NCBI GenBank assembly: GCA_900175165.2 | Contig: FWWN02000211.1 | Span: 22,876-86,875 of the forward strand | Direction of reading: 5' to 3' | Source of the DNA: Rhizomucor pusillus | Lineage: Eukaryota > Mucoromycota > Mucoromycetes > Mucorales > Lichtheimiaceae | DNA: 64,000 nt | Part shown: one piece after another, positions 3,572 through 51,569 of the stretch | Numbering within the stretch: the stretch's first letter is position 1 | How the letters are laid out: each line of letters begins with the position of its first letter | Notes under the pieces: generated by a model | Told to the model about the DNA's origin: nothing | What the model saw: the letters and a program-made list of their open reading frames with translations, nothing else | Database searches by the model: none | Made by a program: the position numbers and the translations under genes

Positions 3572-4529
3572 TTATTTTAATTCAATTGTCTGAAATCCTT
3601 CCTCATCGAGATGCGCGCCGTTTCGAGTTTTGTATGATGCTGATGGATATGGTGGTTGTAACGTCGTAGTAGTAGTAGTAGTAGTAGCAGGACTTTGATC
3701 ACCTGCAGGTGCTACAAGCTGATGTTTGGTTTTGACTCGATATAATACATAGGCAAATGCGATCTACAGATAGAGTGTTAGTCATTGATATCTCTAAAGA
3801 GAATTCGTATGTATAAGACTTGCATTGCTGGCAAGAGTGGCGATAGTGGTAATGGCTGCCCAGATGACGGACTCTTCCCAACGTCTTGAGCACTGGCTGA
3901 AGCACTCGCCGATGCAGTCTTCAGCCAAGATTTGACCGATGCAGCCAGTGACGAAACGGTCTTTAGCAACACAAAGTATTGTAAGATAGGCACAGCAAAT
4001 GATAAATTCAAAAACTGTCAATATATAATAGATCCACCAGTTAATATTGAGTGACCGAAAGTGATTCTAGAATGGACACATAGTTGTTTCAGGATGTGCA
4101 TATGCAAGCAATCGTAAAACCAGTATTTTTTTTCTCTTACCTTGTACACGCTCCACGTTGCACAGACACTAACGATCATGAATAAAACGCTGAGAATACA
4201 CGATGCATAGATAGTTGGCATGATGTATGAATCGATCAGTGCTAAGACGGCCAAGAACGATCAGTGCATATCCTTCTTTTTAGGAAATGGGAGGGAGACA
4301 ACACTGCTTACGTGGCCATTCGTTGTCAAGACAGCCCCATGTCTCCCACAAAACTCTGATCTATGACACTGTGGTGTGAATAGTAAGGATGACCGCGGTA
4401 TTGAGATAGGTACATACCACTTGGATGCCTGTTAATGTAGCTATGATGCGGCTGGGTTGTACATTTAGGCATTGTTGACGCTGTAGTGTGTAATTTTGGT
4501 GACCCATGGCAGATAGTCAGCAGATTCAA
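3572..4529 (-). CDS. Small multi-pass membrane protein of unknown function
   Basis: Not a family I can name. Five joined exons (4529-4418, 4353-4312, 4241-4141, 4066-3824, 3763-3572; minus strand) give about 229 residues with consistent phase. Three hydrophobic segments are clear: one after WGCLDNEWPP, one starting NWWIYYILTVFEF, and one in VIWAAITTIATLASN running into IAFAYVLYRVK. A cysteine-containing loop (CIGQ, CIGECFSQCSRR) lies before the last helix. The C-terminal tail is hydrophilic and carries a poly-threonine run encoded by ACT repeats. The architecture resembles tetraspan membrane proteins, and a fourth helix may lie in an undetected 5' exon, so the start is uncertain. The last intron (3823-3764) only works with a GC donor (GCAAGT). 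Confidence 0.6.
3668..3688. repeat. ACT/AGT trinucleotide run
   Basis: A near-perfect AGT run on the + strand reads as ACT on the coding minus strand. It encodes a threonine tract in the C-terminal tail of the membrane protein. Confidence 0.85.
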
Positions 4530-5234
4530 CAGGTGTGTTTTAAGCTTTCGTGGCCTGCTGTCATATTTATAGCTGCCGCATTCGACATTCCTTGACAGAT
4601 TTACATTTTGGCTGCCGTCAGTCTGTAGAATTTCGAACCGAAATAATATTAAAGAACAAAGGCACTGCTCTTAAACAACGCGCTATTTTGGAGTGTCTAC
4701 GCACATACATACGTTAACTTTTTGTCCTACAAAGTAGTTAACATGCAAGGAAAAGGATGCATGCATAGCAGAACTGAGACTTACCTTTTAAATCGACCAT
4801 AACAGAAAACATCCTTTGCAAAGGACTAAGGCCCAAATATGACGAGAATATATTCATGGCACGAGCCGTGAATACATCCAGCCATCAGGATATCCGTATT
4901 CTTGCAATTACGTGACGATAATGTGCTGACAATGGGAATCGAATGTGACCTCTGGTAGTCACTGATAAACATAATGAGTGCGCGTGCGTGCAGCTTGCGA
5001 GTTTGTAGCGCCACAGTACACGAAGCCACGCCAAGGCTGTATTTCTCCGCCCTCTGTGTCACCCTGCTGGGCAGGGTTTGTGCTGGAGGAAGAGGGTGCG
5101 AGAAGCACTTCCTTTTCTTTTTTTCCCCTTCTCTACACTCCCAACAGGCTGCATACCCTCTCCCCACGCAAGAAAAAAGAGCTTCTTTCCTTCCCTCTTC
5201 CCCTATATCCTCTCCTCTTTCCAAGTCTTTATCC
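4530..5234. other. Intergenic region between divergent genes
   Basis: This stretch separates the minus-strand membrane protein from the plus-strand zinc-finger gene and must hold both promoters. A possible minus-strand 5' exon ends near 4786 at a good GTAAGT donor after a short ATG-led frame, but I could not connect it in phase. Pyrimidine-rich sequence with repeated CTCTTTCC-like tracts precedes the zinc-finger ATG at 5235. Confidence 0.4.
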
Positions 5235-5477: not shown

Positions 5478-5510
<33 letters not shown>

Positions 5511-9440: not shown

Positions 9441-12400
9441 TTAAACTGGGGTTCTACGGTGCTGGTAGTGGTGATGTTGCTTTTCAAGTTTCGATACATG
9501 ATGTTTGCCGTTGCAGCACATGCGTACATCTTCCAATGCTTCGTCCTCGTCATCATCTTCTTCTACAATAGAGCTCCCACCAGAATGCAAGGAGCTTTGT
9601 AAACGCTGGAAACTTGGTTTGCGGAATATGGATGCAGGAGGAGCAGTAGATAGAGAATCTGAAATGTCCCGCTCGCGCTTCTCGCTGCCGTTAGCTCGTG
9701 CAATCAAATAGGAGAGAGCCTAGAGAAAGATAATTTACGTCGGCCATTTACGAAGATGTAATGTTCCTGTGGGATGTTACCTCGTGCCATACTTCGTGGC
9801 GTGACATGTCAGGGGCGGTAATTTTGATCTGTCTGTTGCTTGTCTGAATCAACAGACTAACGTTGGGCAAACCAGGCGGCTGCTGTGAATTATCTGGCAC
9901 GGTTGTAATGTTTTCAATGTATGCTAAAACGTACGATTCGGTGAATACGACAAATTTGGGTAGATTTCAATATACTTGTACACACCATTCTTTGCCTTGG
10001 ATTCCTTTCCATCAGTACCAGGTGCATGAGGACCCCAGTACAATGTGCGCGTGTACGGATGGATCCAGAAGAACCGGCGATGCCTGCGCTCGGATAATCC
10101 ATTACCGACAGCTTTGCGGGTATATTTCCACATCCAGTCGCCAATCATAGTCTGCGTGATAAGTGCAATTGCATTTGGATCAGTGAGGCTGTTTGCTGTT
10201 CTTGCAGCTGCATCAATTTGAGACGAAGTCAGAGAAGGACGACGCTCAATGGTTGAGGCACCGCTGGATATGCTGTCCGATCCACGTCGCTCGTCGAATC
10301 GCCGGCTGCTGTATGTTGTCGATTGCGAGCTGACAAGAGCCGTACCGAACCGGCTTTCGGAAGCGCTGGATACAGAAAGAGCACGTGAGCGAGTTGAAAG
10401 TGCCTTGTTCAACAGCGAAGAAGGTGCAGGGCTGGTAGGGCGAGGCGGTGGGATCTCGGGCGATGAGGGTGGATACACTGTGACACTACCAATCTGTTTC
10501 AGTTCTTCCAGACGCTTGCGATACTCTGCCACAGCTGCCTCAACCATCGCCTCTGCTTCGGCGCGAGTAAGCAAATCCGATCGAGATCCTGCCGATTGTG
10601 TATCCGCGGGTGGAGAGCTGTGGACTATCGATGGTATCAAAGACATGGACTGCACATTTTCGGTAGCAAACGTGGGTGGATGAATATTCGATTCGGATGC
10701 AGAAGCGCGCATTGATCCATCAGCCGCATTCTGTGAATTTGTTCCAGATGTAGCTTGTGCAATGATAGCTGCACCAGCCATAGAAGCATGCGCGCCTGCC
10801 GTTTCTGTGTTTGTGCCATGAGATATTCCTCCAAAGCCTGCGCTTTGTGGGATGTGAGGATGGTTGTCAGACGAAAGCATGGATGATTTACTGGCGACTG
10901 TTCCTGTGGAGAAAGTATCCAATTGACCTTGTTGTTCGCGTGGTTGGTTTGAATGGAATGTAATGGATGAGGACTGCACAGGGTCCTCTCGTAAAGTTAT
11001 AGAATTGCTGATATCTACCGATCTGTCGGATCTGGCATTGTTCTGTTTAAAGTCTTCAGTGCTCGATGGTACCGGTGTAATCTCGCAGGATGCTTCCTTC
11101 TGCGAAGCTACACCCTGCTCGCCTGCTGATGCTGGTGCTGTGTCCTTTTGCGCGCTCTGGTGTACATGATCGATAACAGCTGAGGTTGCTTGAGCAGAGC
11201 CGCTGTGCTGTACTGCCTTGAGGGTAGCTTCTGCCCAATTGTCATTTGCTCTTAGAGAGTATCGTTTGATATCCTCATAGCTCATGGATACTGCGTTAGA
11301 CGGAACTGGCGACATATGTTCTGTTGACAAGACTGCTGCCTCCGATGCTCCGGCGTTGGACGCAGATACCAAAGTAGCATCCTGCAACTGAACGTGTTCC
11401 TTGGGAGCATAATTGACAGATTCTAAGGTAGCATCGCGCAACGTGTTACGTTTCAATGGTTCTAGGTTCACAGAATCCAAAGCAAAGTCCTGGAATGATC
11501 CTCGCTCGGCCGGAGTCACGCTCACAGACTCCAAAGTTGCATCGTGTAAAGTATTGCGCTTTGCTGGCGATACGTCTACAGACTCCAGTGTGGCTTCATG
11601 CAAAGTATTGCGCTTCATGGGTGTGACACCGACAAACTCTAGCGTGGCATCCTGCAAAGTATTACGTTTTGTTGGCGACAAGCTTACAGTCTCCAAAGTA
11701 GCCTCATGCAGAGTGTTTCTCTTTACAGGCATGGCGCTCATGCTGGGTATCCGTACTGTTTGTAGAGATGGAGACGTATCCGATGTTTGTATAGACGATT
11801 CCACAACCGTACTAATTGTTCCGTCGGTTTGCGTGGCAGCATCGGTGCGCTGAGCCGGAGAAATTGATGCTTGAGCGCTTTGGTCGATATACTCAACTGT
11901 TGCTCCTGCACCGGATGATACTGCTGCCGTTGCCTGTTTTACATCTGCTTGAGCAAGTTCGGCACCTAGCGAGGTCATGGATGAAGACGACAAATGCTCT
12001 CTCTCGGCAACTTGGGCTAGCTGATCACCCAAGGAAAGCACATGGTTTTGATTGCCCTCGGCTAGCATAAGCTGATCATCCAGTGTTTGTAATCTCTGTT
12101 GGCTCTTGGACAGTTCAGAGGACAAGGTCGTAAAACCTGCTGCGTTAACATTCTGTTCTTCCTCCTCTGCATCCGTCGAGACTTGGCTGTCAGAAATTTC
12201 CTCTTCTTCAATCCATTCCTCGTCGTTTTCTCCTTCCTCTTGCCGTCGGCTACCAACTGCACGTGCTTTTCGAGCTGCTGTGCGACGCTTCTTTTTATGC
12301 TGAGATCTACGTGGAGTTCCTTCAGCTGCACCTCGTCCGCCAGCATCCACCCACATTCGAGGGTCGTTTTGCATCTGCTCAATAGTCTCCTGCGACTCAG

Positions 12401-13749
12401 CAAGCAGTTTCTTGAGCTCGAACTTTTCGGTTTTTTCGCGGTGCAATGTACTTCTTAGATTAGAAACCATTCGGTGGGCGTGTGCCAAGGATGTTTTGAG
12501 CGTCTCAACTTCGAGCATTTGGTTTCCTCCAGAGGTTTGCCGCGGGGAGGATGGTGGAGACGCCTTCGGGCTTGCATGCTCTTTGTCAGACGTGTCGGGA
12601 GACGCAGAGTCTATCCTGTCGGTCTTGGTAACAACTTGTAGATCAGACATGCTCCGCTTATTGATTCGAGTCTGTGCTTTAGCGATAGCAAGTTCGGACA
12701 TGAGAGTCTCAATTTGCTTGGCTTGATCGACTTTTTCTCGCTGTAACCCAGCAGCGTGGCGACGTATAAGCGACATATCATGCTCGTGGCGCGTCTTCAT
12801 GTCTTCAATGGTTTGATTCAGCTTTTCCTCCTTGTCCCGCATTCGTTCCATCTCTGTACTGAGGTCATTGACATGTTTCATCAACCGCGCTTGCTCTGTA
12901 CTCATTCTATTGAGGTTCTGCTGCAACTCGGTGACATTCATGGTCAGCTCTTGCTTTGCAAGCTCCAGGTTCCATGTGTCCTCCTTTAACCTCTCTACAA
13001 AATGGAAATTTGCCTTAGTTTGGAAATCCAATGTCCTTCCATCTACATTTGCTTGCCTTCGTTTTCTTCTCTCTGCCGTAACTGCTTGGCCATAGCTTCT
13101 GCAGCGCGCTCTAGATCAGATTTTTGGATTTCGAGCTGGCTCAGCAGCTCCTCCTTTTCCTGCAACAAGGCCTGCATCTTGCGCACTTCCAGCAGCAAGC
13201 CTTGGCCAATTTCTGTGGCAAATTCGATATCGGTATTGCGTCGGTCAGCATTCGGTACCTTGGACCGGCGTTTTGTCGGCGTGGAGCCTGAGGGCGGCGG
13301 TGGTAAAGGTAACAGAGAATCCTGTAATAGAGATGATGACTGGGTGGGCATCGGTGCCTAAAAGGAGTGTTCAGGGGCATTATCCTTTCTGCGTTCATAG
13401 AAAGTGTCCTTACTCTGGGAGAGCGATAGTTGTTGAGGTCGCGTTCCAAATTACGTAGTTTTTCGAGTGTTCCAGGTGCCAAGTCGTGCTGCTGCCTGCG
13501 CTCAAGGTCCCGTAGCCTCTTTCTGACTTGACTGATTTGTCTTGTAAGCACGTTTTTTTCAATTCCGCTGGTCGTCTCCTCTAAACGTTTCTCGTATTTG
13601 GCAAGGTCTCGCTCAAGCTGCTGCTTCGAGGTGCTGTATGTTGAAAGGGAAGTTGAACTTGAAGGTGTAGGCAACACCACTGGAGCAGAAGGTGTGCTGC
13701 TGGGCTGCCCTGCTGGTGTTGACAATGACGGCTTCGGTGTTGGCATCAT
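9441..13749 (-). CDS. Num1/Mcp5/ApsA-like cortical anchor protein with PH domain
   Basis: Five exons (13749-13414, 13357-13057, 12994-9986, 9923-9781, 9719-9441) give about 1,355 residues. The N-terminal third is coiled coil (EKLRNLERDLNNY; LLQEKEELLSQLEIQ; ERLKEDTWNLELAKQELT). The middle is disordered and holds seven 18-residue tandem repeats. Near the C-terminus is a PH domain starting TQTMIGDWMWKYTRKAV, with RRFFWIHPYTRTLYWG and ending in APDMSRHEVWHEALSYL. This combination is that of Num1/Mcp5/ApsA, plasma-membrane anchors for dynein and mitochondria that bind PI(4,5)P2 through the PH domain. The second intron (13056-12995) needs a GC donor; a GT donor nearby breaks the frame. The start at 13749 is the first ATG of the coiled-coil frame, and the next codon is also ATG. 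Confidence 0.85.
11346..11723 (-). repeat. Seven tandem 54-bp coding repeats
   Basis: Within the Num1-like gene an 18-residue unit, consensus KRNTLHDATLESVSVTPA, occurs seven times head to tail with no spacers. The first, third, fourth and sixth units are closest; the fifth and seventh are most diverged (ERGSFQDFALDSV; EHVQLQDATLVSA). The period is exactly 54 bp, so the reading frame is kept. A weaker related segment (ANDNWAEATLKAV) follows. Confidence 0.85.
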
Positions 13750-15590: not shown

Positions 15591-17831
15591 ATGCCGCGTT
15601 CGCCAGACCGGTATCGCTACCGTGAGCGTAGTCGATCGCGGTCACCATATAGTGATCGAAGCTCACGAAAACATTCAAAGTATGTTTACTATCTATCTTG
15701 TCAATCTGAATGTTTGCGCTGACACGATCTTTAAGACATAAGCGTCGATCTCTTTCACCCGACGATCGACCTCGTAAGCACAAAAAGCACAAAAAAGAAC
15801 GAAAACGGGATTACAGTGACGAGTCTGAGGAAGAGGAAACTTCGAGATCTAGTCCAGCACTTGACAAGCTAGGCTATTCGAACGTGAACAACCCGTTCAA
15901 CGACATCAATCTAGAATCGAAATTCGTATGGTCCAAAAAGAAGGAACGGGACCGGAAACTGTTTGGCAAAGATGCATCAGAGATCAAGAAACGGGAATCA
16001 GAGCGACGACGAGAGACAGAGGAGGAATTGGCAAAGCTAAACAAACGTCGTGCAGAACGAGAGATAGAGATGCAGTTACGTGAGGAAGAACAAACACGAC
16101 AGAGGCGTGAGGCCGAGCTTGCTCAAATGGGTGATTGGCAAGCAAAGGAAGAAGAATTCCACTTGGAGCAAGCCAAACGAAGAGCAGAAATCCGGATAAG
16201 AGACGGTCGAGCGAAACCTATTGACATTTTGGCAATGAATTTGCGCTTAGCCAACGAACCCGACAAAGTAGAGAACGATGTGGAGTTAGAAGTGGATCTG
16301 GATGAACCTTACAACATTTTGAATGCAAGTATCTTGAAAATAGAACGAATCTAGTATATTGACTAACGAGTTGAATATAGAATCTGTCTTTAGAGGAAAC
16401 GGAAGAACTTCATCAAGACATCCAAATGCATTTAAAGCTGGAGAAGAACGAAAAAACATTGGAATTTTGGCGCGCTATGATTGTCGTTGCAGATGACCAG
16501 CTCAACAAACTTAGGGCAGATCCCTCTCAGCGTCTTGCAACAGGTGTTTCAGATGACGTTAAACGAGACGTATATCGCGTACTTTCTGGGAAAACCTACG
16601 CACAGTTGACGGTTCTTCAGGAAGGAATTGTGAAAAAGCTGCAATCCAACAACCCTGTGGATGTCGACTATTGGGAAAACCTCTTGAAGGAGCTGGTCGT
16701 TTACAAAGCAAAGGCCAAACTCAACGATATGCATCAAGAGCTTCTATCCAAGCGTTTGGAACAGCTACGTAAACGTCAACAGGAAGAGGCTCAAAAGGTG
16801 CAAGAAGAGTTGCGCAAAGTTCTTTATGAACAAGAGGTGCAAGTTCATGGACAAGGTGTTGGGCCGGGAGAAGGCATACAGACTGAGCCTGTTGATCAGA
16901 CGATGATGGAGCAACAGGATGCTGCTTTCGAGAAAGAAGCACAAGCTGCGGAGGATACTGCCGTGCAAACATATGAGCGCTCAATGAGCCCTGAACCTTT
17001 GTCGCAGCTCGGTAGAGATGATCGAGACGCACCAATAATAGACCCTATGGATGATCTCCGAGAATTGGTATGTATCAATCACGATAATTAAGTTGCGACA
17101 ATGACAGGAGGCTGATGGACTTTAATAGATGGAACACAGGCACAGAGTTCTGTCACGTAAAATTATACCAAGGAAAAGAGCTCCTCAACCGAAACCTGCG
17201 GCCGAGAAACCAGAGGACGATTCTGTTGCATCTGTGGTGTTGTTTGAACAGGAAGCTGCCAAGGGAGTTGATGAAGATGAAGATATTTTCAACGCTGAAG
17301 CAGAACTTGCCAAGCAAACTTACCTTTGGCAAGACAAATATCGTCCGAGGAAGCCACGGTATTTTAACCGTGTTCACACTGGATACGAATGGAACAAATA
17401 CAACCAAACACACTATGACCTGGATAACCCGCCACCGAAAGGTAAGTTCATCGGTGGAGATTCACGTTTGCAACAGTAGCTGACATCAAATCGAACTACT
17501 ACAGTCGTGCAGGGCTACAAGTTCAATATTTTCTATCCTGACTTGATTGATAAATCCCAAGCACCCACCTACTTTATTGAGAAAGATCCCGAATCCAATG
17601 AAACGGTTTTGATTCGCTTCCGAGCAGGTCCGCCGTATGAGGTAAGCTTCGAGGGGCTAATGCGCAGCAACCTCTTTTGAAACCGATATTAACCTTGCAA
17701 TGTAGGATATTGCCTTCCGTATTGTCAACCGAGAATGGGAATACTCGCACAAAAAGGGATTCAAATGTAGTTTCGATCGGGGAGTGCTCAGCTTATGGTT
17801 CCACTTTAAACGACAATTCTACCGGAAATAA
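15591..17831 (+). CDS. CACTIN: Cactin, spliceosome-associated protein
   Basis: Six exons (15591-15679, 15736-16324, 16381-17067, 17129-17441, 17505-17641, 17706-17831) give 646 residues. An Arg/Ser-rich start (RSRSRSPYSDRSSRKH) is followed by a highly charged helical region. The cactin middle domain has EPYNILN then LEETEELHQDIQMHL. The diagnostic C-terminal domain has YFNRVHTGYEWNKYNQTHYD, VVQGYKFNIFYPDL and FDRGVLSLWFHFKRQFYRK at the extreme end. Cactin associates with the spliceosome and is needed for accurate splicing in fission yeast and animals. The second intron (16325-16380) uses a GC donor (GCAAGT); the nearby GT shifts the frame. The upstream in-frame region lacks the RS character, so the ATG at 15591 is chosen. 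Confidence 0.94.
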
Positions 17832-18045
17832 AGTTTTACCGCTATTCAAACACGGAACCAATTGCCTGGAACACCGTCATTTTGTGCAATTTGCATGATC
17901 GTCGATTTGTGCGATCGTTGAGATCCGCTTCTTTTTCCAATTTTATATCTCAAAAGTGTTGTTGTTGTTGTTGCCACGAATAGTTCCTCTCTTTTCTCGC
18001 ACTCCACACACGAGGGTATTCGCTGTAAAATCCAGTGTCCGAATA

Positions 18046-20547
18046 ATGAGCATGGCTGTGGCAACCGAGCATACCTCGACAACCACCCATGCCCTTGTCA
18101 AGCGAGAGAATGGTCTAGTCGAAGCAGTCGTGATGAACGAAGAAGTTGATGTCAGCAAGATCGTACAGACCACTTATGCACATCCGAATCCAAGAGAATT
18201 CAAAGGACGTATCGGCTACGCGCAAGTATTCATTTTTCTATACAATGTATTTGCGGTCGTTAACAGACAATTCATCTTTCAGCTGTCTTAATACGGTTTT
18301 GAGAAACCAGAAACCTCCTGTGTTTTGCTCCAGGACCTGCCGGTTGGGTACATCCTTCAGAATTGCTCATCAGACGTTTGATTGTATGCTGAGAACCACA
18401 TTCTTCGACATTTAGATACCATCAGACAAAAGGGCATGGATTTTCTCAAAGAGCTTGGATTGCAGGTAAATTTTTGTGGATGCGAGCAATCTTCTCCATC
18501 GTCATATTTATCATGCTATTACTATTTGTCTAGAATTTGCGTGACTTGAAGACGCTTATTGAATGGAATGAAGGTAATGTGTGCCGCTGTTTTCAAAAGG
18601 AATGAGTGGCTGACAATGTTCTGGATATCAGCGCATGGGATCAAATTTATGCGGATATCCAGCGAATTATTCCCTTTTGCCAGCCATGACACCGTTGGAT
18701 ATTCTTTGGAATATGCCAAGGATGAGTTGAAACAAGTGGGCGAGTTGGCCGCCAAGTATAATCATCGCCTTGTAAGTAACGTCAATGTTGCCCAACTTTT
18801 AGTGCATTCGTTTTGCTGAATCATACTTTGCACATCCTCAGACTACGCACCCAGGACAATATAATCAGCTTGGCTCTCCGAACCCCACGGTTGTTGCAAG
18901 AACGATCAAAGATTTGACATGTATGTACTATTGCGGAAGATTTATTAGATCTGTGAGGATTACAGGTTATTAACACCTTTTAGATCATGCATCTATGTTG
19001 GACTATATGGGTTTACCACCGGATTCGATCATGATAATGTATGTACCAAATACAATACCATTCTTCTGCTAGTAATACTAAACTTCTTTTGCGTACAGTC
19101 ATATGGGCGGCGTTTACGGTGACAAGGAAGCTGCAATGTTGGTAAGTACGAACATGAGGCGTACATGGATACCGTGTATAACCATTGATTCTCTAGCGTT
19201 TCGAGGAAAACTACAAGAAACTACCTGAACAGATTAAACGCCGTCTGGTAGTTATCGTCATACAAACAATATATATGTACGTAGATGGGCTGACGATCAT
19301 TCTATAGGTCCTCGAAAACGATGAATTAGGGTATTCTGTTAGCGATTTGCTACCAATCTGTCAGAAATTAGGTATACCCCTCGTACTCGATTGGTAAATT
19401 GATCACGTCGTTTCTGCTATTTTTTATATAATACTGACATGTTTTTTAAGGCACCATTATAGGTAGAAGTTGAACGCACGAAAGAGATTCGCGATGCAGG
19501 AATTTTACTAACAACAACATTTTAACAGCATAAATCCAGGAACTATTGAATATTTGCCCGATATTATCCCAGCTATCAATGAGACATGGACACGAAAGGG
19601 TCTCAAACCGAAGGTATGCTATACCCTATCAATCCTTGCTTATTCCATCATGGTTACCAACAGTATCTTCTCTGCGTAGCAACATTATTCTGAATCGCGG
19701 CCTGGAGCATTCTCGGCAATGGAGAGAAGGGCGCACAGTGATCGGTAAGTGTATGGGAAAACCAACCATTGCAAAGGCTGCTAACGCCTTAACTATTAGC
19801 GTCGTTAATTTGCCACCGGTAACTGATGATGTCGATCTTATGATTGAAGCTAAAGATAAAGGTAAATCTGAGCATTTTCATTTTGTAATTTGACACAACT
19901 CAACTTTATGTCTTTCCAAAGAGCAAGCTGTATTTCAACTTTACAAGCTATATGACTTACACCCCGTCGACGATGAAGTATGGGTAGAAGCTGGTCCGTT
20001 CAAGCCCAAAGAAAGGAAAACTCGGAAGCGTAAAGTCAAGAAAGCGGAAACCGTAGCAGATGAAGAAGAGGAGATAGAAGCACCCATAGATGAGAGCAAC
20101 TATGCCAGTGAGGCTTTAAACATGCTGCGCAGGTCACGGAGAAAAACGGAGCAAGTCTCGTACCGGGAAGTCGATGTCGATATTGACTTGGAAGAGTCGG
20201 TGGAAGATGTTGCTCCTCGTAAACGCAAAAGAGAAACTAGAAAAGATGCAGATGTTGGTAACGATAATGCCACTGAAGCAGCGACAACGCGCAAGAAAAC
20301 TTTGAAAGCAAGGAAGAAGGTTCAGATGGGAAACGAACAACACCACTCCAAGAGGAAGGCTGCAAAAGCTTCAGTCGTCAAAAATGCAGTAAACGGTACA
20401 AATAACGTACCAAAACCCGCGAGAGCCGCAAGTCCTGCTAGGAAGCGTACAAAGCCTACCTCAGGTCAAGAAAATGAAAACCTGAAAGATCTAGAAGGGC
20501 AATCAGGGGAGGCGCTCGGAATTTGCAAGAAAAAGAGCATATTATAG
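18046..20547 (+). CDS. UVE1: UV-damage endonuclease (UVDE)
   Basis: Fifteen predicted exons, all phase-consistent, give about 544 residues. UVDE is a TIM-barrel enzyme that nicks DNA 5' to UV photoproducts and starts excision repair independently of NER. Conserved blocks occur in order: RIGYACLNTVLR, VFCSRTCRL, LGLQNLRDLKTLIEWNE, FMRISSELFPFASH, TTHPGQYNQLGSP, IIHMGGVYGDKEAA, LVLENDELGYS, LVLDWHHYSINPG and KQHYSESRPGAFS. These contain the metal-binding His/Glu/Asp residues. After the barrel (about residue 340) comes a Lys/Arg-rich tail of roughly 200 residues, a plausible nuclear or DNA-binding extension. Intron 1 (18222-18282) uses a GC donor, and exon 11 (19451-19462) is only 12 nt. Upstream in-frame sequence has no ATG. 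Confidence 0.93.
19451..19462 (+). other. UVE1: 12-nt microexon of UVE1
   Basis: The bases between a TTTTTTAAG acceptor and a GTAGAAG donor add one base to complete Trp, then His-His-Tyr, then two bases of Ser. Including them yields LVLDWHHYSINPG, the conserved metal-binding strand of UVDE; skipping them removes the paired histidines. Confidence 0.75.
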
Positions 20548-20666
20548 AGCCTGTGAAGCACAAAACGAAGAGAAGTACGAAGGTGAAATTCACAAAATAG
20601 AATTATATGTGACGTTAACGATATATATAAAATGCTTTCATGTATTCAATCATTCAATTGTTTAAT

Positions 20667-23539
<2,873 letters not shown>

Positions 23540-23809
23540 AAGCTTTGAGAATTGAAAGGAGAATAAGAAGCCACTAGAGAACCTCCGCCATTTCTGCGCA
23601 TATATCGGTTGACATGAATTGCCGCAGGAACATTGATCGACATTGATGATTATGAATGATATATGCGGGGAGGAAAAAGGCAAGTGGATGGAGAGAGTAT
23701 GGATCCTACATTGTTGTCGGTTCAATAGGCGTAAAGATCTCTCAAGAGATGCAAAGCTGGGAAGTCGGAATGTGTTGTATCTTCATAGGAAAGGAATCGA
23801 TTTTCTTCT

Positions 23810-24777
23810 TTACTGTATTGCATCAACTGCTGCAATAATTCTTTCGTGCAAATCATGCTCTGTCTCTTCTTTTGATGCATCCATCATTAGGGTATCCTCG
23901 TCAGCGTTCTTATCTAGTGCCATTTCTACGACCATTTTTGACTCCTCGTTTTGTAACGGTTGGGTAATTTCGTGTCCAAATGTTTGCAGCATGGTCAGGG
24001 TCTCGGCGCACTTCCTACGATAAAGTAATACAAGTTTAAAAGTGGATCCAAAGTGAACGGTATATACATTTGTTACCTTCGTATTTCTGCAGTTTTTTCC
24101 TTCTTCTTTTCCAACTGGTTCTCCATTAACAGTCGTAGAGTCTCCCTAGCTTGGTGAGGGCGATATTCATTCAAAATGTGATGCATATTAATGAAGATCG
24201 TGCTTATATTTTCTATCCGTTGGCCATACTGTCACGCCATATTAGTGCAGTACACGATTTCACTCATATCAATATACTTGTACCTGTTCTGGATCCTTAA
24301 CCAAAACATCTAATAAATCCAGGAATTGTACGATAAGTGTTCGATTTAGTTTTTTCAATTCCTTTATACGATCTTTACAAATGATTCAGTGCAATGATTT
24401 CAGAAACGCACAGCACACAACCATCCGTACCTATAGGTCCTGAAGGAAACAGTTGTTTTACACCGAGATCTTCAAGAGTCTGTAGCTGCTCAATAACCTA
24501 ATCGCGCGTCTGTTACGATATTTGTTGCAGTTTCTCTGTAATATGTAGTGCACACCTGCCAGCGTTGATCAAAGACCGTGTAAGCGTCAGTTGGAGGAGC
24601 AGGTGGTTCGAGTGATTGGATGGTGTAATCAGGAAATGGCGGCTGGCTCAGAGGTGTGGTTGGGTACACTCCAGTCTTCCTTGCTTCTTGTAACTTTTCC
24701 CAGTTCTCAGCAGTATACCGTTTGTAGAGATAAGGTGGCTCGGGCCATGCGCTGCCAGACGCTTGTTGATCGTTCAT
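23810..24777 (-). CDS. MED7: Mediator complex subunit 7
   Basis: About six exons encode a protein that starts MNDQQASGSAWPEPPYLYKR, the classic MED7 N-terminus (poly-Pro WPxPPxxYKRYT), followed by YTAENWEKLQ and PPFPDYTIQSLEPPAPP. The middle matches the MED7 helical hinge that pairs with MED21: RIKELKKLNRTLIVQFLDLL, LVKDPEQ, then YGQRIENISTIFINMHHILN and EYRPHQARETLRLLM. The tail is acidic. MED7 belongs to the Mediator middle module and supports RNA polymerase II transcription. An in-frame ATG exists at 24879, but the intervening 34 residues do not resemble MED7, so 24777 is preferred. Introns I checked are canonical GT-AG. Confidence 0.9.
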
Positions 24778-25028
24778 TTGACGCAGTATTCTGGTCGGAA
24801 GAAGTCGTACCGCATAAGTTAGACGCTTCCCAAGAAATAAATTCCAGTTGAAAGGCGCGGATCGGCAAAATGAATGCATACGTTCATAGTATAATTACAA
24901 TACCCAAGTTACGCGCACATGTACATATAAATAAGGGACGTATTGATACCCTCTCTGCCAAAATTTGGATAATTTCCCTTTATATATCACGCTTTTTAAG
25001 TACTGTACAGGAACTGCTATAAGAATAA

Positions 25029-25922: not shown

Positions 25923-26049
25923 TGTAGAGAGGAATAAAAAGATTCAAGTCAAACCAAGGACAGGACGCCACTTATCAAATGAAAATGTTCGGCTGAGTAT
26001 GAATGGTGTACTCAACACTTTCTGCAAAGAACAGGCTGTTCTGCGCACA
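25923..26049. promoter_or_regulatory. Putative bidirectional promoter, U2AF35/Hub1
   Basis: Only 127 bp separate the ATG of U2AF35 (minus) and the predicted ATG of Hub1 (plus), so both promoters must overlap here or extend into the genes. I see no clear TATA box. The assignment follows from gene orientation. Confidence 0.5.
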
Positions 26050-26928: not shown

Positions 26929-28515
26929 ATGCCAACCTCATATGCACGACGCAGCCAACGCAAGGATAAAGGTGCCAGTACGGTTACTGGACCTTCTTCT
27001 TGGGCTAGTGATTTGCACCAAGCAATAGACGATCTGAATGTTACTCGATCGAGGCAAATTCTCTTGATCAACGAGTTTGGTCGTTTCTCATGTTAATAGT
27101 GCGATCATGTAGTGTTCGAGAGGAAGCATTAGCAACTATTGTCACAACCTTAAGCCGACACTATGCAGCTTCTGAATTGAGTCAGCGGCACGAGGAGTTA
27201 CTGCTACTTCTTCGTCGCTCACTTAGTAAAGGAGCCACAGCTCGCGAGTCCTCTTTGGCAGCGCATGCCATTTCATTATCATTTATCAACCAAGGTGACC
27301 TTGAACTTACAGATGGAGAAGAATTATACCAGCGTGTATTACCAGCGTTGAAGAGCACGGTCGAAAACACATCAGATACTGATGTTAAATGCAAAGTAAA
27401 CGAAAGATGTAAGATAATTTGCTCTACGTGCAGTTATATTTATTTGAGGAATTTAGTCTCTGTATGCACTCGGAGTGATGACCTCAATTGCTGCTTCGGA
27501 TATCGATGCACAGCTTGTTCGAGACTACATCTATGAGTTGATTGAATCCGAAGGACAAGACATAGACTCTGATGAAGCAGACCAACATAATCTGACAAAA
27601 GCATGCCTACGAGCATATGGTGTCATATTTGTATCCTCTTTTTGCCAAGGTGTTATCGATCCTGATATCGTGAACGAGGAAACTGAAAAGCAAGTTTGTC
27701 TACAGACTCCTTTGGTGACGGTTTATTAATGCCATCTCTCTTGTAGAGTTATGCCAGTTCATGAGCTCCTTTTAGATTCGTCAGATCGAGGTGTACGGAT
27801 AGCTGCTGCGCAGAATATTGGTGTTATATTTGAAACGCTGCGGATATGCAATGGAAAGGTAATTTGAGTCCAAATCATGAAGATAACAGTTCTAATCTCT
27901 TATTGCAAGCAGCCAATCGATGAGAACGAAGAAGAAGATAATACAACGGCGAATATTCCAGAATACGATAATATGGACGGTCTGGTCCATACATTATCAG
28001 AATTATCGCTAGAAACCAATAATGTTGGTGATTATGAGGATGACGAAGATCCTGTCTTCCAAAACGTTTTGGAGACACTGGAAGAAGGGGTGCGACCAGT
28101 TAGAGAGATATCTATCAATGGCAACCTCGTACAGTTGAAAGGATGGGGTAAGTAGAACTTCAACACTTGCGTTTAAGCTGGATTAAAACTAAACCTTTCT
28201 TAGCCAAACTATTGCTGATGGAATGTTTTCGAGAAGTTATTGGTCACGATCTCCAACCTCATCTAAAGGTATTTTGATACTGTGAGTAGTGCGACCAGCT
28301 CAGCGTAGTTATATTAATCTGTTCAATAGGCAAACGAGAACTTTCGGCAGATTTTTGAATATTCAGCACCTTCTATTGAAGAAGAATCTGACGATGATGG
28401 ACAGTCCATGGCTGGGCTCTCCAAAGCTGATAGAATGTTTCTTCATGGCGAAAACAGGAAGTTACGGACAAGAACGATCCGAAACGCAAGATTACGGAAG
28501 AATATCGAGGAATAA
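26929..28515 (+). CDS. Interferon-related developmental regulator (IFRD)-like protein
   Basis: Seven exons encode an all-helical, HEAT/ARM-like protein. The start MPTSYARRSQRKDKG and WASDLHQAIDDLNVTRSS are followed by VREEALATIVTTLSRHYA, typical of the IFRD N-terminal domain. Later blocks are SLYALGVMTSIAASDIDAQ and HELLLDSSDRGVRIAAAQNI. The C-terminal IFRD domain has VFQNVLETLEEGVRPVREI and LKGWAKLLLMECFREVIG, then a basic end (RKLRTRTIRNARLRKNIEE). IFRD1/2 are linked to transcriptional co-regulation and to ribosome inactivation in animals; in fungi the role is unclear. Two of its introns (27054-27112 and 27690-27746) need GC donors; GT alternatives break the frame. The ATG at 26929 follows a T-rich leader. 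Confidence 0.8.
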
Positions 28516-42141: not shown

Positions 42142-45100
42142 ATGCTGCCCGGGAATACTCGTAATACAGCCACCAACGGCAAAGGCCAACAAGGCCGGCA
42201 GAAACGGAGCCACGTCCCATTTCCTCGAGGTGGCCGGCATTTCGGTGGCGACGCTATACCAGACAGCAACTACATAGCTCACCCTCCACCGGACATCAAG
42301 CAGAGTGCAACTGAGTCTCAGAAACATACGCAAACAAGCCAACGTAGGAATCTGCTCATATATTTGTGACAACATAAGACATTGCTAATCGTTGATGGCA
42401 AGTAGCTACGGACACGAGTTTGTTATCGGCGAACTTCCCGCATAAGGATAAAAGGAAGCATCTATTCCCTTGGTCAAAGAAGAAAAGTAGGTGCAATCAA
42501 ATATTCATTTACTTGCATTACTGATCATTAATAGGTCGCACAGATCTAAATACGTTATCGCAGGGTCTGTCCAACACTGTAGGTGTCTCGACAGCTCATA
42601 CAACACCCTACTCTGCTGCAGGCGGCAATAGAATGTTTGGGAACTCCTCTATGCCATCACTTGTTAGTCATCCACAAAAGCAACCACACGAATACGATTC
42701 GCGAGCTCAACACCCTCTCGATACGCAAGCCATGGATGATTATTTCCCGCACCATGTACCCGTTTCTCAAACATTTGTGCATGGAGTCTATGATGAGCGA
42801 CGAAAACCGCCAATCTTGCAGTCTCATAGGAAGGCGAAAGAACGTGAGAAATCAGATAGCAGCGTACTTACTACGGGCAGTCGGCACGATGACGTACATA
42901 GGCCCAAGGAAAGCATGGATCGTAAGTGAGAAAGCTTTTGCAATGAAAAATTGGATGTTTTTTGCTTACAGTCTGCCAAAGTTACGGTTGATCAGGACTT
43001 TGGAAGCATGGATGAGATTTTGAATCCTGAATATCGACATCTTGCAAATGGATATATACAGGTAATTGCAGAAACTGGAGAGGCGCAATTTCTTTAAATA
43101 ACACTGGGTAAATTAGCCACGCACACCAGTGCAGGATATTGCTGAGCAATGGGCGCCACCTGATAGCTGGGGTGTACAACCTGCAGAAGGCTCAAATACT
43201 CCTGAGGTTCCTCCATCTATTATGGATGATGACCCTATGGATTACGATGAATATTCAGTGATGGAACCAGAAAAATACAATGGTCCCAAACGAAACGTAG
43301 GTTACACAAAGTTCTGCAATCTATGCATTGTTAATTCAGTCTCCTTCCAGTATTGCATACGCATTTTTCGATCCGATGGTACATTTGCAACTTTGCAACT
43401 TCCATTGACGACGACTGCAGGAGAAATCGTTCAAAAGCTTGCAAGCAAGTTCTTTATGCGGAAAGAAATTGGTCAATTATGCCTCAGGTTGAAACGCAGG
43501 AATCTCGGTGCGTAAAAGTTATGTGTTGAGACGCTTAAACACAGGAGTCTTACAAGCTTTTAGAACGAGTTTTACAGCCTTGGGAGAGGCCATTGCAGAT
43601 TCAAAAAACCCTACTTGAGCACATGGGCTACACGGAGCAGGACAACATCGCCGATGTGGGACGAGAGGATAATTCATATTTGCTGCGATTTGTGTTTGGA
43701 CTCGATACAGCACAAATGCTTCCAAAAGAGATTGAATATGGCAACAACAAGCAACATATTGATTTGCAGGCACGCAACCTTCCCACAGTACCCGTGTTTC
43801 TTTACGATCAAGCAGCGAGTATTATCTCGCTGGATTTATCGAAAAATTTGCACATGGACATACCCGTCGATTTCCTTCGCAATTGTCGACAATTGAAGCA
43901 ACTATGGCTCGCAGATAATGAATACACTGCAATACCCCCATCTGTTCATCATGTCTCTGGACTTGAACATCTCAACATATCCGGAAATCGCCTGCGTGAC
44001 TTGCAGCATGCTCGACTTGACAAGATACCTGGATTGAAAACAATGCGTGCATATAACAATCGACTGGAGAAACTCCCAAATTCATTCGCGATCTTTAAAC
44101 AGATGACAATGCTTTCGATTGCCAACAATAATTTTACCTCGTTTCCTGACGTCATTTGTGAAATGGTTTCACTGACGCATCTGGATGTCAGCTTCAACAA
44201 GATTGATGCCTTTCCGGATGAAATTAGCAACCTTAAAAACCTTACCCGGCTTTTTGCAATTGCTAATCGATTTGCGGGTAGTTTACCACATAGCTTTGCA
44301 CAGTTGGAAAACCTTCGTGAGCTGGATATTCGGCAAAACTCGATCAACGATCTCGATGTATTATGTCGCCTGCCTCGACTCGAAATCTTGTATGTCGGTT
44401 ACAATGCTGTAAGCATTGTCGGTTGCGAATTTAAATCTCTGCGGCAGCTCAAAATGACCAAGAATCATCTAACGCAATTCAACCTGGGAGTTTGCCGCAG
44501 ATCGTCTGAAGAACCGCCAGCAATCCACAGCAACGTTCCTGCATCTATATCCGTCCGCCCAGAAAGCAGTATGTTAACAGAACTCGATCTATCTAGCTGT
44601 ATGCTGTCGTCGCTGCCAGATGATGTATTTTTGGCTGTTCCGAACCTTGAGGAGTTGATCTTAGACAGCAACACGCTTAATTCCATCCCTGCAAGCATCG
44701 GTACTTTACGGAAGCTGGTGCGATTATCGCTCCAAAACAACTTTTTGGATAGTCTTCCAAGCGAGATATCAAACTTAACCGAGCTCAAAATTCTGGATGC
44801 ACAGAAAAATAACCTCAAAATGCTGCCCAACGAAATTTGGCTATGTCCATCATTGCAGACTCTCAATTGCTCTTCTAATCTCCTCGAGGCGTTTCCAAAA
44901 CCTTGTGCTGCGCCGAATATCTCTCTTCATCTCCCAGGAGCCGCCTCTGACAGCGCTTTAGCGTCCGTTATGGGTGGCGTTGTGCCGGATAAAATGATAC
45001 CAACGACTCTTGGTGGGCATGCTGGTCAAGGCATAGTACCTGGCAACCGTCCTTTGCCTGATGGAGACAGCACACATAGCAACCGGTCCATGGATGACTC

Positions 45101-48100
45101 TACAACAGTCAGCGGTAACAGCGGCCTGCAATCCCCACCTAATTTTAATCCGCCATCCTTTTTCGCCAGCCCAAGAAACCATCCTCCACCATTGTCTCTA
45201 TCCTTGCGAAGACTTTTCCTTGGCGATAATAGATTAACCAACGAAATCTGGTCACCATTGATGCTGTTTCTGGAACTACGGACGCTAAACCTGTCTTTCA
45301 ATGATCTCGACGAGATCCCGCCAGAACATCTCTGCCACCAACATCTTTATGAACTGTATCTATCCGGTAACCATTTGACTTCGTTGCCGGCGGATGATAT
45401 CGAGAAGCTGAGCTACTTGCGTGTTCTGGCGGTAAATGGAAACAAGCTTCAGACACTTCCTGCTGAAATTGGCAAACTACGGAAGCTTCTGGTGCTGGAT
45501 GTCGGCAACAATGTGCTCAAGTACAATATTTCCAACTGGCCGTATGATTGGAACTGGAACTGGAACTTGGGCTTAAAGTTCCTTAATCTATCGGGTAACA
45601 AGAGATTAGAGATCAAGAAGACGCACCCGGAGACCCATGCACCTGGGGAGAAGGATTTGGCAGACTTTAGCGCTTTGACCCGACTTCGTATGCTTGGCTT
45701 AATGGATGTTACGATCCTTGGTGTTTCTATACCCGAGGAATCTCCTGATCGGCGAGTACGTACATCTCCATCCGAGGTCAACAACATGGGATACGGCGTA
45801 GCCGACTGGATTGGCACAAACGAGCATTTAGCCACGTGGGATCTGGTTATGCCACGTTTTCGGAATAAGGACGACGAGTGTATTTTTGGTTTATTCGATG
45901 GATGCAAGAGCACACGATTTGGTAGCAAGCTGACAAAGTATTTGAATGATCACCTCACATACCATGTCATGAACGAACTTCGCAAGAACAAGCAAGACGA
46001 CACTGTTGTAACCGCTCTCCGTCGAGCATTCCTTTCCTTAGAAAAGGGACTCGGTGTCAGCGTTAGCGAAGACATCGATACTGGTGCTTCCGCCGTCGTG
46101 TGCTACATAGCCGGTACTAAGCTGTATGTTGCCAATGTCGGTGATGCCATGGCAGTTATATCAAGAAACAATGGGCAAGCGTTCGAAATCACAAACAAAC
46201 ATATTGCTATCAATCCAAGCGAAATTTCTCGTATACGAGCTGCAGGCGGCTTCGTCTCTAATTCTGGCAAAGTCAACGGCGAACTAGTCGTCTCTCGAGG
46301 ATTTGGATACTTTGACCTTGTGCCCATTGTAAACGCCAATCCGTACATTGCAAGCATGGACTTGACAGAAAACGACGAATTTGTTATCATGGCATCCCGT
46401 GGTCTATGGGAAAGGATGAATTATCAAACTGCAGTGGACATTGCACGCACCGAAAAGGACGATTTCATGGCAGCTGCTCAGAAGCTGCGCGATTTTGCTA
46501 TTACATACGGCGCAGAGAAAGACCTTATGGTGATGGTGATAGGAGTTGGTGACCTATTTGACAAACGTGATAAACGGTTCCGCTGGAGACCAGGAAGGGC
46601 GACTGCAACCGCGGAAGCAGGCATTCTATTAGATGATGTTTCTCTTGGAACAGGTGGCATGCTGGTGGGCAAGAACAAACGTCGTGTAAAAGAGGAAGCG
46701 CCTGGTGATTCGGTAAGTTGATTATCTTTGCGGAAATTGTCTAGGTGCTCTTAATAACTCATTCATATTCATTGATTGTATTAGACATTGGCACGCCTGG
46801 ACAGGGAAGTGCCACCGCCAATTAATCAAGTCGTGCTAGTCTTTACGGATATCAAGAGCTCCACGATGCTGTGGGAAACTCAACCAGAAAATATGCGTTC
46901 TGCGATCAAGATTCACGATGCTGTTATGCGCCGAACTTTACGAAATGTGGGTGGATATGAAGTCAAAACCGAAGGCGACGCCTTTATGGTGTGTTTCCAA
47001 AACATTGTATCTGCTCTTTTGTGGTGCTTTACGGTGCAGCTTCAGCTCTTGGAAGCGGACTGGCCGGCAGGCATTCTAGCAACTGAGGAGGGACGCGAGA
47101 TTGAAAAGGATGGAACTGTCATTTATCGAGGTCTTTCTGTCCGTATGGGTGTCCATTACGGTACTCCTGTTTTTGAACGCAATCCAATCACGAAGCGAAT
47201 GGATTACTTTGGGCCAGTTGTGAACAAAGCAAGTCGTATCTGTAATGCGGCAGACGGTGGGCAAATTTGTGTCTCTTCAGATGTAGTGGCTGCACTACGC
47301 AATATACCTGGAATGTTGGACGATAGTGCGGCTGCAACAGATGAACTCAGTACTTCAGTCAGCACTTACCTGCTAAGCCGGGATATTCAGCAGCTCAAAA
47401 GCCTTGGTTTCCAGGTTGTCGAACTTGGAATGCGAAAACTGAAGGGACTAGAGACACCAGAGATGCTGAGTCTCGTATTTCCCAAAAAACTGGCCGGTCG
47501 TATGGAAATGGAAGAACGATTGCCGATATTGGACGAGCAGGCATCTGGTCTGATGAAATCTACTCCCGGTTCTCCACGCTTAACGACAGCCGATACATCC
47601 TTAGCCACCTCACCTAGAATGGGCCCTGACATGTCGCTTGAACCATCACGAGTACCAACACCTACTGAAGATATCGAAGTAGTGGAAACACCAGCAAATG
47701 AAAAACAGGAACCATTGGGTATGCAAGATGTTGGGCGATTAGAGCCTGCCAAGCCAGCGCAACATGCTATCGATCCTGCTCTTGTCAATTCCCTTTGTAG
47801 TTTAGCAATTCGCTTGGAAAGATTAACTACAGGCCATACAATGGCAAGATCGCCTGCTCAACAGGGTGTTCGTCTATCACCCCGTCAAGGATATACAGCG
47901 ACTGTGTTTACAGACACTTCATCAAGCGAGTACGCGTCTATCGGTCAATTGATGGAGCATCATATTATGAACAATGCGTCAGACGAGGAATTAGTGATTC
48001 TAATGGAGAATTTTGTTACCCGCATCGAGGCAAGTGGATATGATTGCAATCGTAGTGAATGATATAATTGACTTTTGAGTAGAATGCCGCATCATCCCTC

Positions 48101-48262
48101 TATTTGAACAAGGTTGGACGTTTTGCTAACGTTTTGGAAAAGCTTGGTGAAGCTATTGAAGTGGATCCCATGCATATATTACGTGCATTGCAAATGTTTT
48201 CTGAAGTTGCTGGGCTGGCGGATATGCCTACTAGTTTGGCTGCTTCACCACATCGCTCTTAA
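42142..48262 (+). CDS. CYR1: Adenylate cyclase, fungal Cyr1 type
   Basis: About nine exons encode roughly 1,900 residues, in the fungal Cyr1 order. A disordered N-terminus of about 310 residues is followed by a Ras-association domain (YCIRIFRSDGTFATLQLPLT ... LLEHMGYTEQDNI). A long leucine-rich repeat array comes next (LISLDLSKNL-type units, about 420-1000), then a PP2C-like domain (ECIFGLFDGCKSTRFGSKL; AVVCYIAGTKLYVANVGDAM). The class III cyclase core has VVLVFTDIKSSTMLWETQ, with the metal Asp, and GGYEVKTEGDAFMVCF. The C-terminal helix SLYLNKVGRFANVLEKLGEA corresponds to the region that binds cyclase-associated protein. It makes cAMP at the membrane under Ras control. The last intron (48030-48082) needs a GC donor; without it about 60 conserved C-terminal residues are lost. 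Confidence 0.95.
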
Positions 48263-49132: not shown

Positions 49133-49149
49133 AAAAAAAAAAAAAAAAA
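49133..49149. repeat. Poly-A run
   Basis: About seventeen consecutive A bases lie 70 bp before the kinase ATG. It could be a poly(dA:dT) nucleosome-depleting promoter element or a by-product of the transposon decay next to it. Confidence 0.7.
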
Positions 49150-49215
49150 GTTGTAAGTCTGGTTGTCAGGAACAAACCTGGGAGAAACAGAAAAACTTGA
49201 AAAAAAGCTGGCTTT

Positions 49216-51569
49216 ATGGCTCAGTCTCCCATGCAGAACTCCTTGGCAATCCTCAAGGGCTCTCCAGCCAGCAACTCTGTCCCCTTCCCGGAACCTTCTA
49301 CCTCCGCATCCTCTCGCCGCTCCAGATCCGGCAGCTTCATGTGGCAAAGCAACTTTACGCGACAAGCATCGGATGCTCGACGTTCATCCGACACCGAGTC
49401 GGCTCCTCTCCAAGCAGCTGCTAACATGTCTACGAGCTCGCTGTTATCTGAGACGAACTGGGCAAATAAGCTCGAAGACTTTGACGTAAAGAAGCCTATC
49501 GGCTACGGCTCGTCAGCCGTAGTGTACCGCGCTATTTTCAAGCCATTGAACAAGCCTGTGGCGCTGAAGATGATTGACCTGGATTTATTCGAACGTAACC
49601 AAATTGACGAATTACGGGCAAGTGCGACAACTATACTTCTATTTGAAAGAGAGCCAATATGCTAACGATTAAAGTTATTAATAACAGCGAGAAACCGCAT
49701 TGATGGCACTTTCAAAGCATCCGAATGTACTGCGTGTCTACGGGTCGTTTGTGAATGGATCTAAACTCTATATTGTCACACCATACTTGTCAGCAGGTAA
49801 AAATTTCGTATATTGCTCCTGGACGCAATGCCGCTGAACACGGATATTTGTACCTACTAGGCTCTTGCTTGGACATAATGAAAACTGGATTTCCTCAAGG
49901 CTTTGAAGAATACACCATTGCAACGATTCTGAAGCAAGCTTTGGAGGGCTTAGCATATCTGCACAAGAATGGACATATCCATCGAGATGTCAAGGCAGGG
50001 AATCTCCTGATGGATGATCAAGGTGCTGTCCTGCTAGCTGATTTTGGTGTCTCAAGCTCACTTTCGGAGAAGGGTGATGTCCGCAAGACATTTGTGGGAA
50101 CTGTATGTTTCTGTGTGTGGAAGTGAAAAGGGGAAAATGACGTGGGAGTTGTTTTGTTTGCTTTTCTCACAAACAGACTAGCCATGTTGGATGGCGCCCG
50201 AAGTCATGGAACAAGCTGGCTATGATTTCAAGGCGGACATTTGGAGTTTTGGTATCACCGCTTTGGAGCTAGCTACTGGTCACGCACCGTTTGCAAAGTA
50301 TCCTCCAATGAAGGCATGCAGATTTTCAAAACAGAAAAATCTTAATAGGTTTATTGTTGCTAACATTGGATCGCTAGGTTCTCATGATGACTTTATCGAA
50401 TGATCCCCCGACACTCGACAGAGAAGCAACAGTGCACAAATATAGCAAAGTGTTCAAAGAAATGATTGATATATGCCTGCAAAAAGATCCCCAGAAGCGA
50501 CCTACAGCCGAAAAATTATTGAGTCATCCCTTCTTCAAGCAAGCAAAGAAGAAGGAGTATCTCACTAAATCTGTCCTGGCGCATGTTCCCCCTCTTGATC
50601 AACGACCGCACAAGAAGGTCCCGCAACGTCATATCTCATTTGAGACCACAGAGCAAGCATGGGATTTCGAAAGCGACAACGAGGATGCTCCTCAACCCAA
50701 GCGACATATTTCGTTCGGCGACGTTATCATACGCTCTTCGGACAAAAAGCCTTCACGATTTCTGGCAGCAGAGGAGTCAGGCGAAGAAGTGAGAAAGGGG
50801 AGATTTAGCATAGCGTCGGATGATACTCCTTCACCGATACCATTAACGCGCGTAGGCTCTGAACAACGGAAATCACGCTTTGAAATATCAGACGGTACGT
50901 CACTATCTAGAGAGGATTCCATGTCATCCTCTGGTCTCTCGCGGAACAACTCTACCACGAGCCCGAAACCCAGCCGCTTTGCCGTCGACCACGGTGAGAA
51001 CAGGAAGAAAGGCCGTTTTGAATTGAGCGGAGGAAACATAGATGGTTAGCACAAATTGCATGTGCATGATTTCAAGACAATTCGCTCACATGCCTATTAT
51101 AATATACATTAGCTCAGCACCTAGTAGAACCATCGCCTATTTCATCGGTTTCTGGATCACCGAGTATATCGCCTCAAACATCTTTATCCCGCGATGAAGA
51201 TCCGTCACAAACCCTGATGCTTCAGATGGAAGCATTTTTAAGGACGAATGAATTACAACGACAGTTGATACAAGATATGCTAGCTCATGCACGGAAAGAC
51301 GATACCTCCTCTTCTAGTACCTCGAACGACGCTACCGCCACGCTGGTAAGCTATAAGAGCAAAATATATAACCACCTGCGAAACAACTGGAAATTCAATC
51401 GACTTTGTTTTACTTTTAGGATCACTTGAGACAACTCCTGAATGAATCCGATCGTGAACGCGAGAGACTCGCACGTGACAATGAAGCATTGAAAAAAGAA
51501 ATCGAACAATTGCGCCGCAATCTTTATTATACCAATATCCATCCCACCGAAATTTCAGACAAACAATGA
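49216..51569 (+). CDS. Ste20-family protein kinase, OSR1/SPAK (Fray)-like
   Basis: About eight exons. A serine-rich N-terminus of 85 residues precedes the kinase domain: [16 protein letters not shown] (glycine loop), VALKMIDL (catalytic Lys), [12 protein letters not shown] (catalytic loop), [10 protein letters not shown] (DFG), [16 protein letters not shown] and [20 protein letters not shown]. The [12 protein letters not shown] and [11 protein letters not shown] motifs point to the OSR1/SPAK subgroup. The C-terminal tail is serine-rich with repeated KxRF motifs and ends in a coiled coil ([20 protein letters not shown]); a typical CCT domain is not visible. Animal relatives control ion cotransport, and fungal ones are little studied. 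Two introns (49618-49687 and 50314-50377) require GC donors. The ATG at 49216 is the first in a frame that is open to the kinase domain. Confidence 0.88.

Follow-up and report, generated by a model that had tools for sequence, protein, structure and literature searches.

GC donor introns and the strength of their splice sites in the fungus Rhizomucor pusillus

A 64,000-nucleotide (nt) stretch of the genome of the fungus Rhizomucor pusillus (assembly GCA_900175165.2, contig FWWN02000211.1, positions 22,876 to 86,875; hereafter the window) contains nine introns, spread over seven genes, that appear to begin with GC in place of GT, which raises the question of whether GC donors are truly frequent in this organism and, if they are, how they are recognized. 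Introns with a GC donor seem to make up about a twentieth of the total, some five times the average for fungi, and mostly have a splice site that is otherwise very near consensus. With a probability of roughly nine in ten, these are real and abundant U2-type GC-donor introns, amounting to about 5%, handled by an ordinary spliceosome that tolerates C at +2 by means of surplus pairing. Fungi on average have about 1% GC-AG introns, the mean given in Table 1 of PMC7072748 being 1.009%, against about 5% here.

GC donors in the window and in the rest of the genome

Read directly from the window, all nine introns begin with GC and finish with AG, as had been proposed in the preliminary description. 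They are listed here with a tenth candidate, which was called by the gene finder alone.

3764..3823, minus strand: GC-AG intron, GCAAGT, 60 nt; small gene with its ATG at 4221, product predicted to be a membrane protein
12995..13056, minus strand: GC-AG intron, GCAAGC, 62 nt; Num1-like gene 9441-13749
16325..16380, plus strand: GC-AG intron, GCAAGT, 56 nt; Cactin gene 15591-17831
18222..18282, plus strand: GC-AG intron, GCAAGT, 61 nt; UVDE gene 18052-20547
27054..27112, plus strand: GC-AG intron, GCAAAT, 59 nt; IFRD gene 26929-28515
27690..27746, plus strand: GC-AG intron, GCAAGT, 57 nt; IFRD gene 26929-28515
48030..48082, plus strand: GC-AG intron, GCAAGT, 53 nt; adenylate cyclase gene 42142-48262
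49618..49687, plus strand: GC-AG intron, GCAAGT, 70 nt; OSR1/SPAK-like kinase gene 49216-51569
50314..50377, plus strand: GC-AG intron, GCATGC, 64 nt; OSR1/SPAK-like kinase gene 49216-51569
53661..53726, minus strand: candidate GC-AG intron, GCAAGA, 66 nt; called gene 53159-53936, whose protein is without a Pfam match

The lengths of the nine are 53-70 nt, exactly as described, and are ordinary for the region (median 63 nt for GC introns, 62 nt for GT-AG introns here). The start described for nearly all of them, GCAAGT or GCAAGC, is present in seven, the remaining two being GCAAAT and GCATGC. Minor, U12-type introns have the donor motif RTATCC, a form that fits none of the nine donors.

Frequency was assessed with a gene finder whose score combines coding sequence, donor, branch and acceptor. 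Besides GT at its usual weight, it could use GC, GA and GG as donors at small and nearly equal weights, so that GA and GG act as decoys. The final runs used an intron penalty of -4.5; the GC share was similar at penalties of -6.5, -5 and -4 (13/192, 17/271 and 19/310 in the window plus 14 stretches). In the window the calls were 88 GT, 10 GC, one GA and one GG. Eight of the nine proposed sites are among the GC calls, and the number of introns comes to about 100 rather than the roughly 120 estimated previously. The GC call at 26349-26419 is false, as the public R. pusillus protein to which the Hub1 of the window is 99% identical over its full length requires a GT intron at 26370-26419. Removal of this call leaves 9 of 97 GT-or-GC calls, comprising the eight proposed sites and 53661. 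Allowing GC beside GT gained 67.3 nats from ten calls.

The same gene finder was applied to 17 stretches of 10 kb outside the window, taken at round coordinates, not at random, from other long contigs already met in the motif counts below; 2 of the 13 outside GC introns are also in the genome-wide GCAAGT motif list. Locus L001, which overlaps the window, was excluded from all gene finding, and L002-L031, picked by GC motif, were excluded from the rate. Among 222 outside introns the donors were GT in 207, GC in 13, GA in one and GG in one, meaning that GA and GG donors well above chance were not found there. The gain from one extra donor beside GT was 88.2 nats from 12 introns for GC, compared with 8.1 nats from three for GA and 10.2 nats from two for GG. 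Two doubtful GC calls (L032 7309 and L037 9433) were removed before the rate was estimated at 11/218, or 5.0% (95% interval 2.5-8.8; 13/222 if they are retained), which differs from the fungal mean of 1.009% with P = 1.7e-5. The window is richer in GC donors, not significantly (P = 0.21), and the genome-wide rate is therefore nearer 5% than 7%. Thus the expectation of a rate of several percent is supported, the figure of about 7% having been an estimate for the window.

Of the 13 outside GC introns, ten were compared with Pfam, and seven of these have a family match above the cut-off that extends across the junction (DHBP synthase, M28 peptidase, GLE1, short-chain dehydrogenase, transaldolase, 2H phosphoesterase and RhoGEF). 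The other three gave a BAR match below the cut-off, one weak and unrelated-looking match, and no match.

Motif counts over the whole genome (24.45 Mb, 353 contigs), in which a donor hexamer was combined with CTAAC and TAG at intron distances, support a genome-wide excess of GC donors. GTAAGT was found 319 times, GCAAGT 188, GAAAGT 46 and GGAAGT 22. Since both decoys likewise carry a GT at +5, the GC excess is not explained by a GT donor shifted downstream. The GCAAGT word itself is commoner than the decoy words in sampled DNA (185 versus 132 and 98), and the excess persists when this is considered (P below 1e-12). A backward-pattern control gave 108 GCAAGT, 170 GTAAGT, 162 GAAAGT and 113 GGAAGT; as it is of other composition, the decoys were relied on instead.

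Joins at the individual sites

The preliminary description held that nearby GT alternatives shift the frame or introduce a stop, which proved too strong: each of the eight sites examined (all but 3823-3764) offers between 4 and 31 GT alternatives that stay in frame and meet no stop. At seven sites the GC join was compared with GT alternatives by homology. At the Cactin site (16325), a profile of fungal homologues scored the GC join at 1110.2 bits and the best of all 13 GT alternatives at 1093.8; a Cactin homologue was seen aligned at the junction, and among the matches listed, Mucorales Cactins show 63-78% identity over the aligned part. For adenylate cyclase (48030), a profile built on the final 300 residues of its homologues scored the GC join at 310.5 bits and the best of all 14 GT alternatives at 283.0.

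At the remaining homology-tested sites, the best-scoring GT alternatives were taken for comparison with pieces of Pfam families. The UvdE piece scored 93.5 bits with the GC join at 18222 and 76.5 and 75.4 with two of nine GT alternatives. In the IFRD gene, the GC join at 27054 reached 65.7 bits against 44.8 and 27.2 for two of 31 alternatives, and that at 27690 reached 63.6 against 59.8 and 54.8 for two of 22. The Pkinase piece at 49618 gave 68.5 bits with GC and 61.5 and 41.5 with two of four alternatives. At the second kinase site (50314), where three of 18 alternatives were tested in Pfam and one of 18 against PDB chains, the best SPAK chain scored 190 bits with the GC join and 160.8 with the best-scoring GT alternative, an OSR1/SPAK difference of 29 bits. 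These chains favor GC because the GC join restores the stretch KYPPMKVLM.TL.NDPPTL. The claim that the GC joins restore conserved proteins accordingly stands in that the GC join is best at seven tested sites, six by profile and 50314 by OSR1/SPAK chains; generic kinase profiles at 50314 are neutral or opposed to it.

Support at the Num1-like site (12995..13056) comes from the gene model alone, the GT-only version of which is 8.1 nats worse. The small membrane-protein gene, with a first intron at 4140-4067 that has a GT donor, was uncalled in the whole window. When a short region was run, allowing GC produced a weak gene (score 3.7) with another start, and the GT-only run on that region called no gene; its product is without a Pfam match. 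At 3823-3764 the GC join is clearly ahead, with a score of 6.2 compared with -5.6 for the best GT alternative that stays in frame; retention of the intron leads to an early stop, and the GT four bases downstream causes a frame shift and a stop.

Donor strength, U1 pairing and alternative explanations

A curated set of 20 GC donors (nine from the window and eleven from outside) was compared with 295 GT donors, bearing in mind that the gene finder weights GC low and hence accepts mainly strong GC donors, which biases this comparison. C at +2 goes together with strength on the intron side: AAGT at +3 to +6 is present in 15/20 GC donors and 65/295 GT donors (P = 2e-6), and AAG at +3 to +5 in 17/20 and 106/295. 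The exonic AG is no different (7/20 versus 104/295), and a nearby CTAAC is more often found in GC introns (9/20 versus 38/295). Mean U1 pairing of the GC donors is -9.3 kcal/mol if +2 were U and -4.92 kcal/mol with C, and that of the GT donors is -6.55 kcal/mol.

The whole-genome motif counts are free of the gene-finder donor bias. In the weaker GNATGT series, for which three words were counted, T was found 165 times, C 43 and G 29, and subtraction of decoys (with the ATGT-series chance level taken from the single decoy GGATGT) shows the C share dropping from 0.32 in the AAGT context to 0.05 in the ATGT context. In raw counts the C share climbs with donor strength (z 5.9 for the trend), from 43/208 (0.21) in GYATGT through 150/447 (0.34) in other GYAAGT to 38/60 (0.63) in AG/GYAAGT, AG preceding 38 of the 188 GCAAGT motifs and 22 of the 319 GTAAGT motifs. 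One U1 small nuclear RNA (snRNA) locus was found above the Rfam cut-off, with 41 of 395 first-look candidates scored, and it has an ordinary 5' end, AUACUUACCUG.

We infer that the ordinary spliceosome removes the GC introns, and the best-supported mechanism is that this same spliceosome tolerates the mismatch in strong donors. C at +2 would face an A of U1 as a mismatch, and AAGT at +3 to +6, which would pair with U1 and afterwards face the ACAGA box of U6, would supply, sometimes together with the exonic AG, enough surplus pairing for the mismatch to be tolerated. In a strong donor a change from T to C at +2 might then be nearly harmless and drift in, and in a weak donor selection would be expected to purge it. 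An extension that we offer tentatively, as it is less probable than its negation, is that +2 is effectively neutral wherever the remaining donor is fully complementary; the C share of AG/GYAAGT fits neutrality at full strength, being near the background share of GCAA among GCAA plus GTAA (0.61 inside introns, 0.62 between genes). If this were true, one genome would provide a graded read-out of the surplus pairing needed to pay for a U1 mismatch, and full-strength GT donors would be rare since exon and intron pairing trade off.

Several results weigh against abundant GC splicing. The evidence for it here, as derived from sequence, is of reading frame, homology and decoys only, and the donor comparison carries the bias described above. 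The decoys also improve the window model beside GT (GA by 20.6 nats in six calls, GG by 16.0 nats in two), and 3 of 23 GC calls overall are wrong or doubtful (1/10 in the window, 2/13 outside). The gain over a GT-only gene model is just 1.7 nats at the Cactin site and 0.8 nats at the UVDE site, where one GT alternative has a signal score of 3.3 versus 3.1 for GC; homology therefore carries the argument at these two sites. At 50314 the Pkinase piece gives a tie (GC 92.2 bits; GT alternatives 92.3, 92.3 and 86.1), and with PK_Tyr_Ser-Thr one GT alternative, the one compared with the SPAK chains above, scores 66.1 and beats GC at 61.9. A rival account is that the true rate is near the fungal 1% and that gene prediction has inflated the count; in its favor, the gene models are ab initio, 3 of 23 GC calls are wrong or doubtful, and there is a precedent in Heterorhabditis, where a first published gene set with 8.87% GC-AG fell to 0.79% on re-annotation (PMC5906903). 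We consider such inflation very unlikely in view of the outside rate after curation and its P value, the scarcity of decoy calls, the whole-genome motif excess, and the seven of ten tested outside introns that lie inside Pfam families; decoys and homology guard against an annotation error of the Heterorhabditis type. Slightly less probable still is that the true donors are the GT at +5 of GCAAGT or another nearby GT, the GC introns being misread. In its favor, a GT does lie four bases into GCAAGT, and all eight sites examined have GT alternatives that are open and in frame. Against it, GAAAGT and GGAAGT carry the same downstream GT and are far rarer than GCAAGT, and the best tested GT join falls short of the GC join at six sites by between 3.8 and 27.5 bits, the shortfall at the seventh being 29 bits versus SPAK.

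An altered U1 snRNA, or a U1 variant that pairs with C at +2, would be a simple account of many GC donors, but we give it little credence, as the sole U1 locus found among the scored candidates has an ordinary 5' end and GC use declines in the weaker ATGT context, which is unexpected for a U1 that pairs with C. A variant of mismatch tolerance, and compatible with it, is that selection keeps GC donors because full GT complementarity binds too tightly and C at +2 tunes it down. It would account for the strong avoidance of AG beside GTAAGT and for the preponderance of C over T at AG/GYAAGT (38 versus 22). We nonetheless judge this tuning improbable, though less so than the other alternatives, as the C share of 0.63 at these donors is close to both background values, so that neutral drift is enough and no preference for C is needed. 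Tolerance of the mismatch by the ordinary spliceosome remains the explanation that we prefer.

Apart from the GC donors, the GT donors at all loci show AAGT and exonic AG to be near-exclusive: AG is present in 4 of 99 donors with AAGT, compared with 163 of 367 without it. In the motif counts, AG/GTAAGT accounts for 22 of 319, compared with about 112 expected under independence. An exon-intron seesaw of this kind is known in intron-rich species, where PMC11732430 interprets it as U5 versus U6 pairing.

Comparison with other genomes and neighboring genes

The introns described here resemble U2-type GC-AG introns generally in their GC donor, AG acceptor and otherwise near-consensus donor. Human GC sites are reported to be strong at -1G and +5G together (PMC11732430), whereas the exon side in R. 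pusillus is no stronger than that of its GT donors. Elevated GC-AG rates are already known elsewhere, and this fungus adds another case. The nematodes Globodera rostochiensis and G. pallida, at 3.46% and 3.53% (PMC4901422), are like Rhizomucor in their raised rate and in the consensus G[T/C]AAGT; the Globodera values are supported by RNA sequencing and manual curation, that of Rhizomucor by reading frame, homology and decoys. Higher values are given in PMC3033335 for Aureococcus anophagefferens (39.6%), Micromonas pusilla (22.2%) and Chlorella sp. (7.7%). The same source describes an unchanged U1 5' end in Aureococcus and two Micromonas, as at the one U1 locus found in R. pusillus. Those genomes are very G+C-rich, in contrast to the 45% G+C of the window. 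The annotation of the yeast Meyerozyma guilliermondii has a similar percentage of major non-canonical sites (about 6.67%) and, unlike Rhizomucor, 13.33% minor non-canonical sites (PMC7072748). Eurytemora affinis differs in its frequent GA and GG donors (PMC5714493), which here are near the level of false calls.

Within the Mucorales, we found no earlier report of GC-AG introns in the open-licence literature, covered mostly as titles and the beginnings of abstracts. The Rhizomucor miehei genome paper counts 41,834 introns, and its passages on introns and splicing make no mention of GC donors (PMC4023604); the terms GC-AG and splice site are absent from the Lichtheimia corymbifera paper (PMC4133162).

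With GC donors in several-fold excess, a gene predictor that admits GT-AG introns only would split many genes of this fungus or join their exons wrongly. Gene models in public databases may contain such errors where an intron begins with GC. No Rhizomucor protein was present among the best 120 of 429 Cactin matches or among all 48 matches to the end of adenylate cyclase. The Hub1 search does show a Rhizomucor protein, and the Hub1 gene is without a GC intron. The genus Rhizomucor is met in the clinic. It is also used for enzymes, R. miehei being an example (PMC4023604). A compact fungal genome with moderate G+C and an ordinary U1 5' end would make tolerance of C at +2 measurable against donor strength.

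The Hub1/UBL5 gene lies at 26050-26731 on the plus strand and encodes Hub1 joined to an N-terminal region rich in arginine and serine, a layout common to proteins of R. pusillus, Lichtheimia ramosa, Rhizopus delemar and Mucor circinelloides. It is one of four splicing-factor-like genes, Cactin among them, that lie together with other genes in a 16-kb part of the window (15591-31335). The other two are a CCCH-RRM protein gene at 25029-25922 on the minus strand, with domains found by Pfam and a product that we take to resemble U2AF35, and a repeat protein gene at 28892-31335, presumably crooked-neck/Clf1-like.

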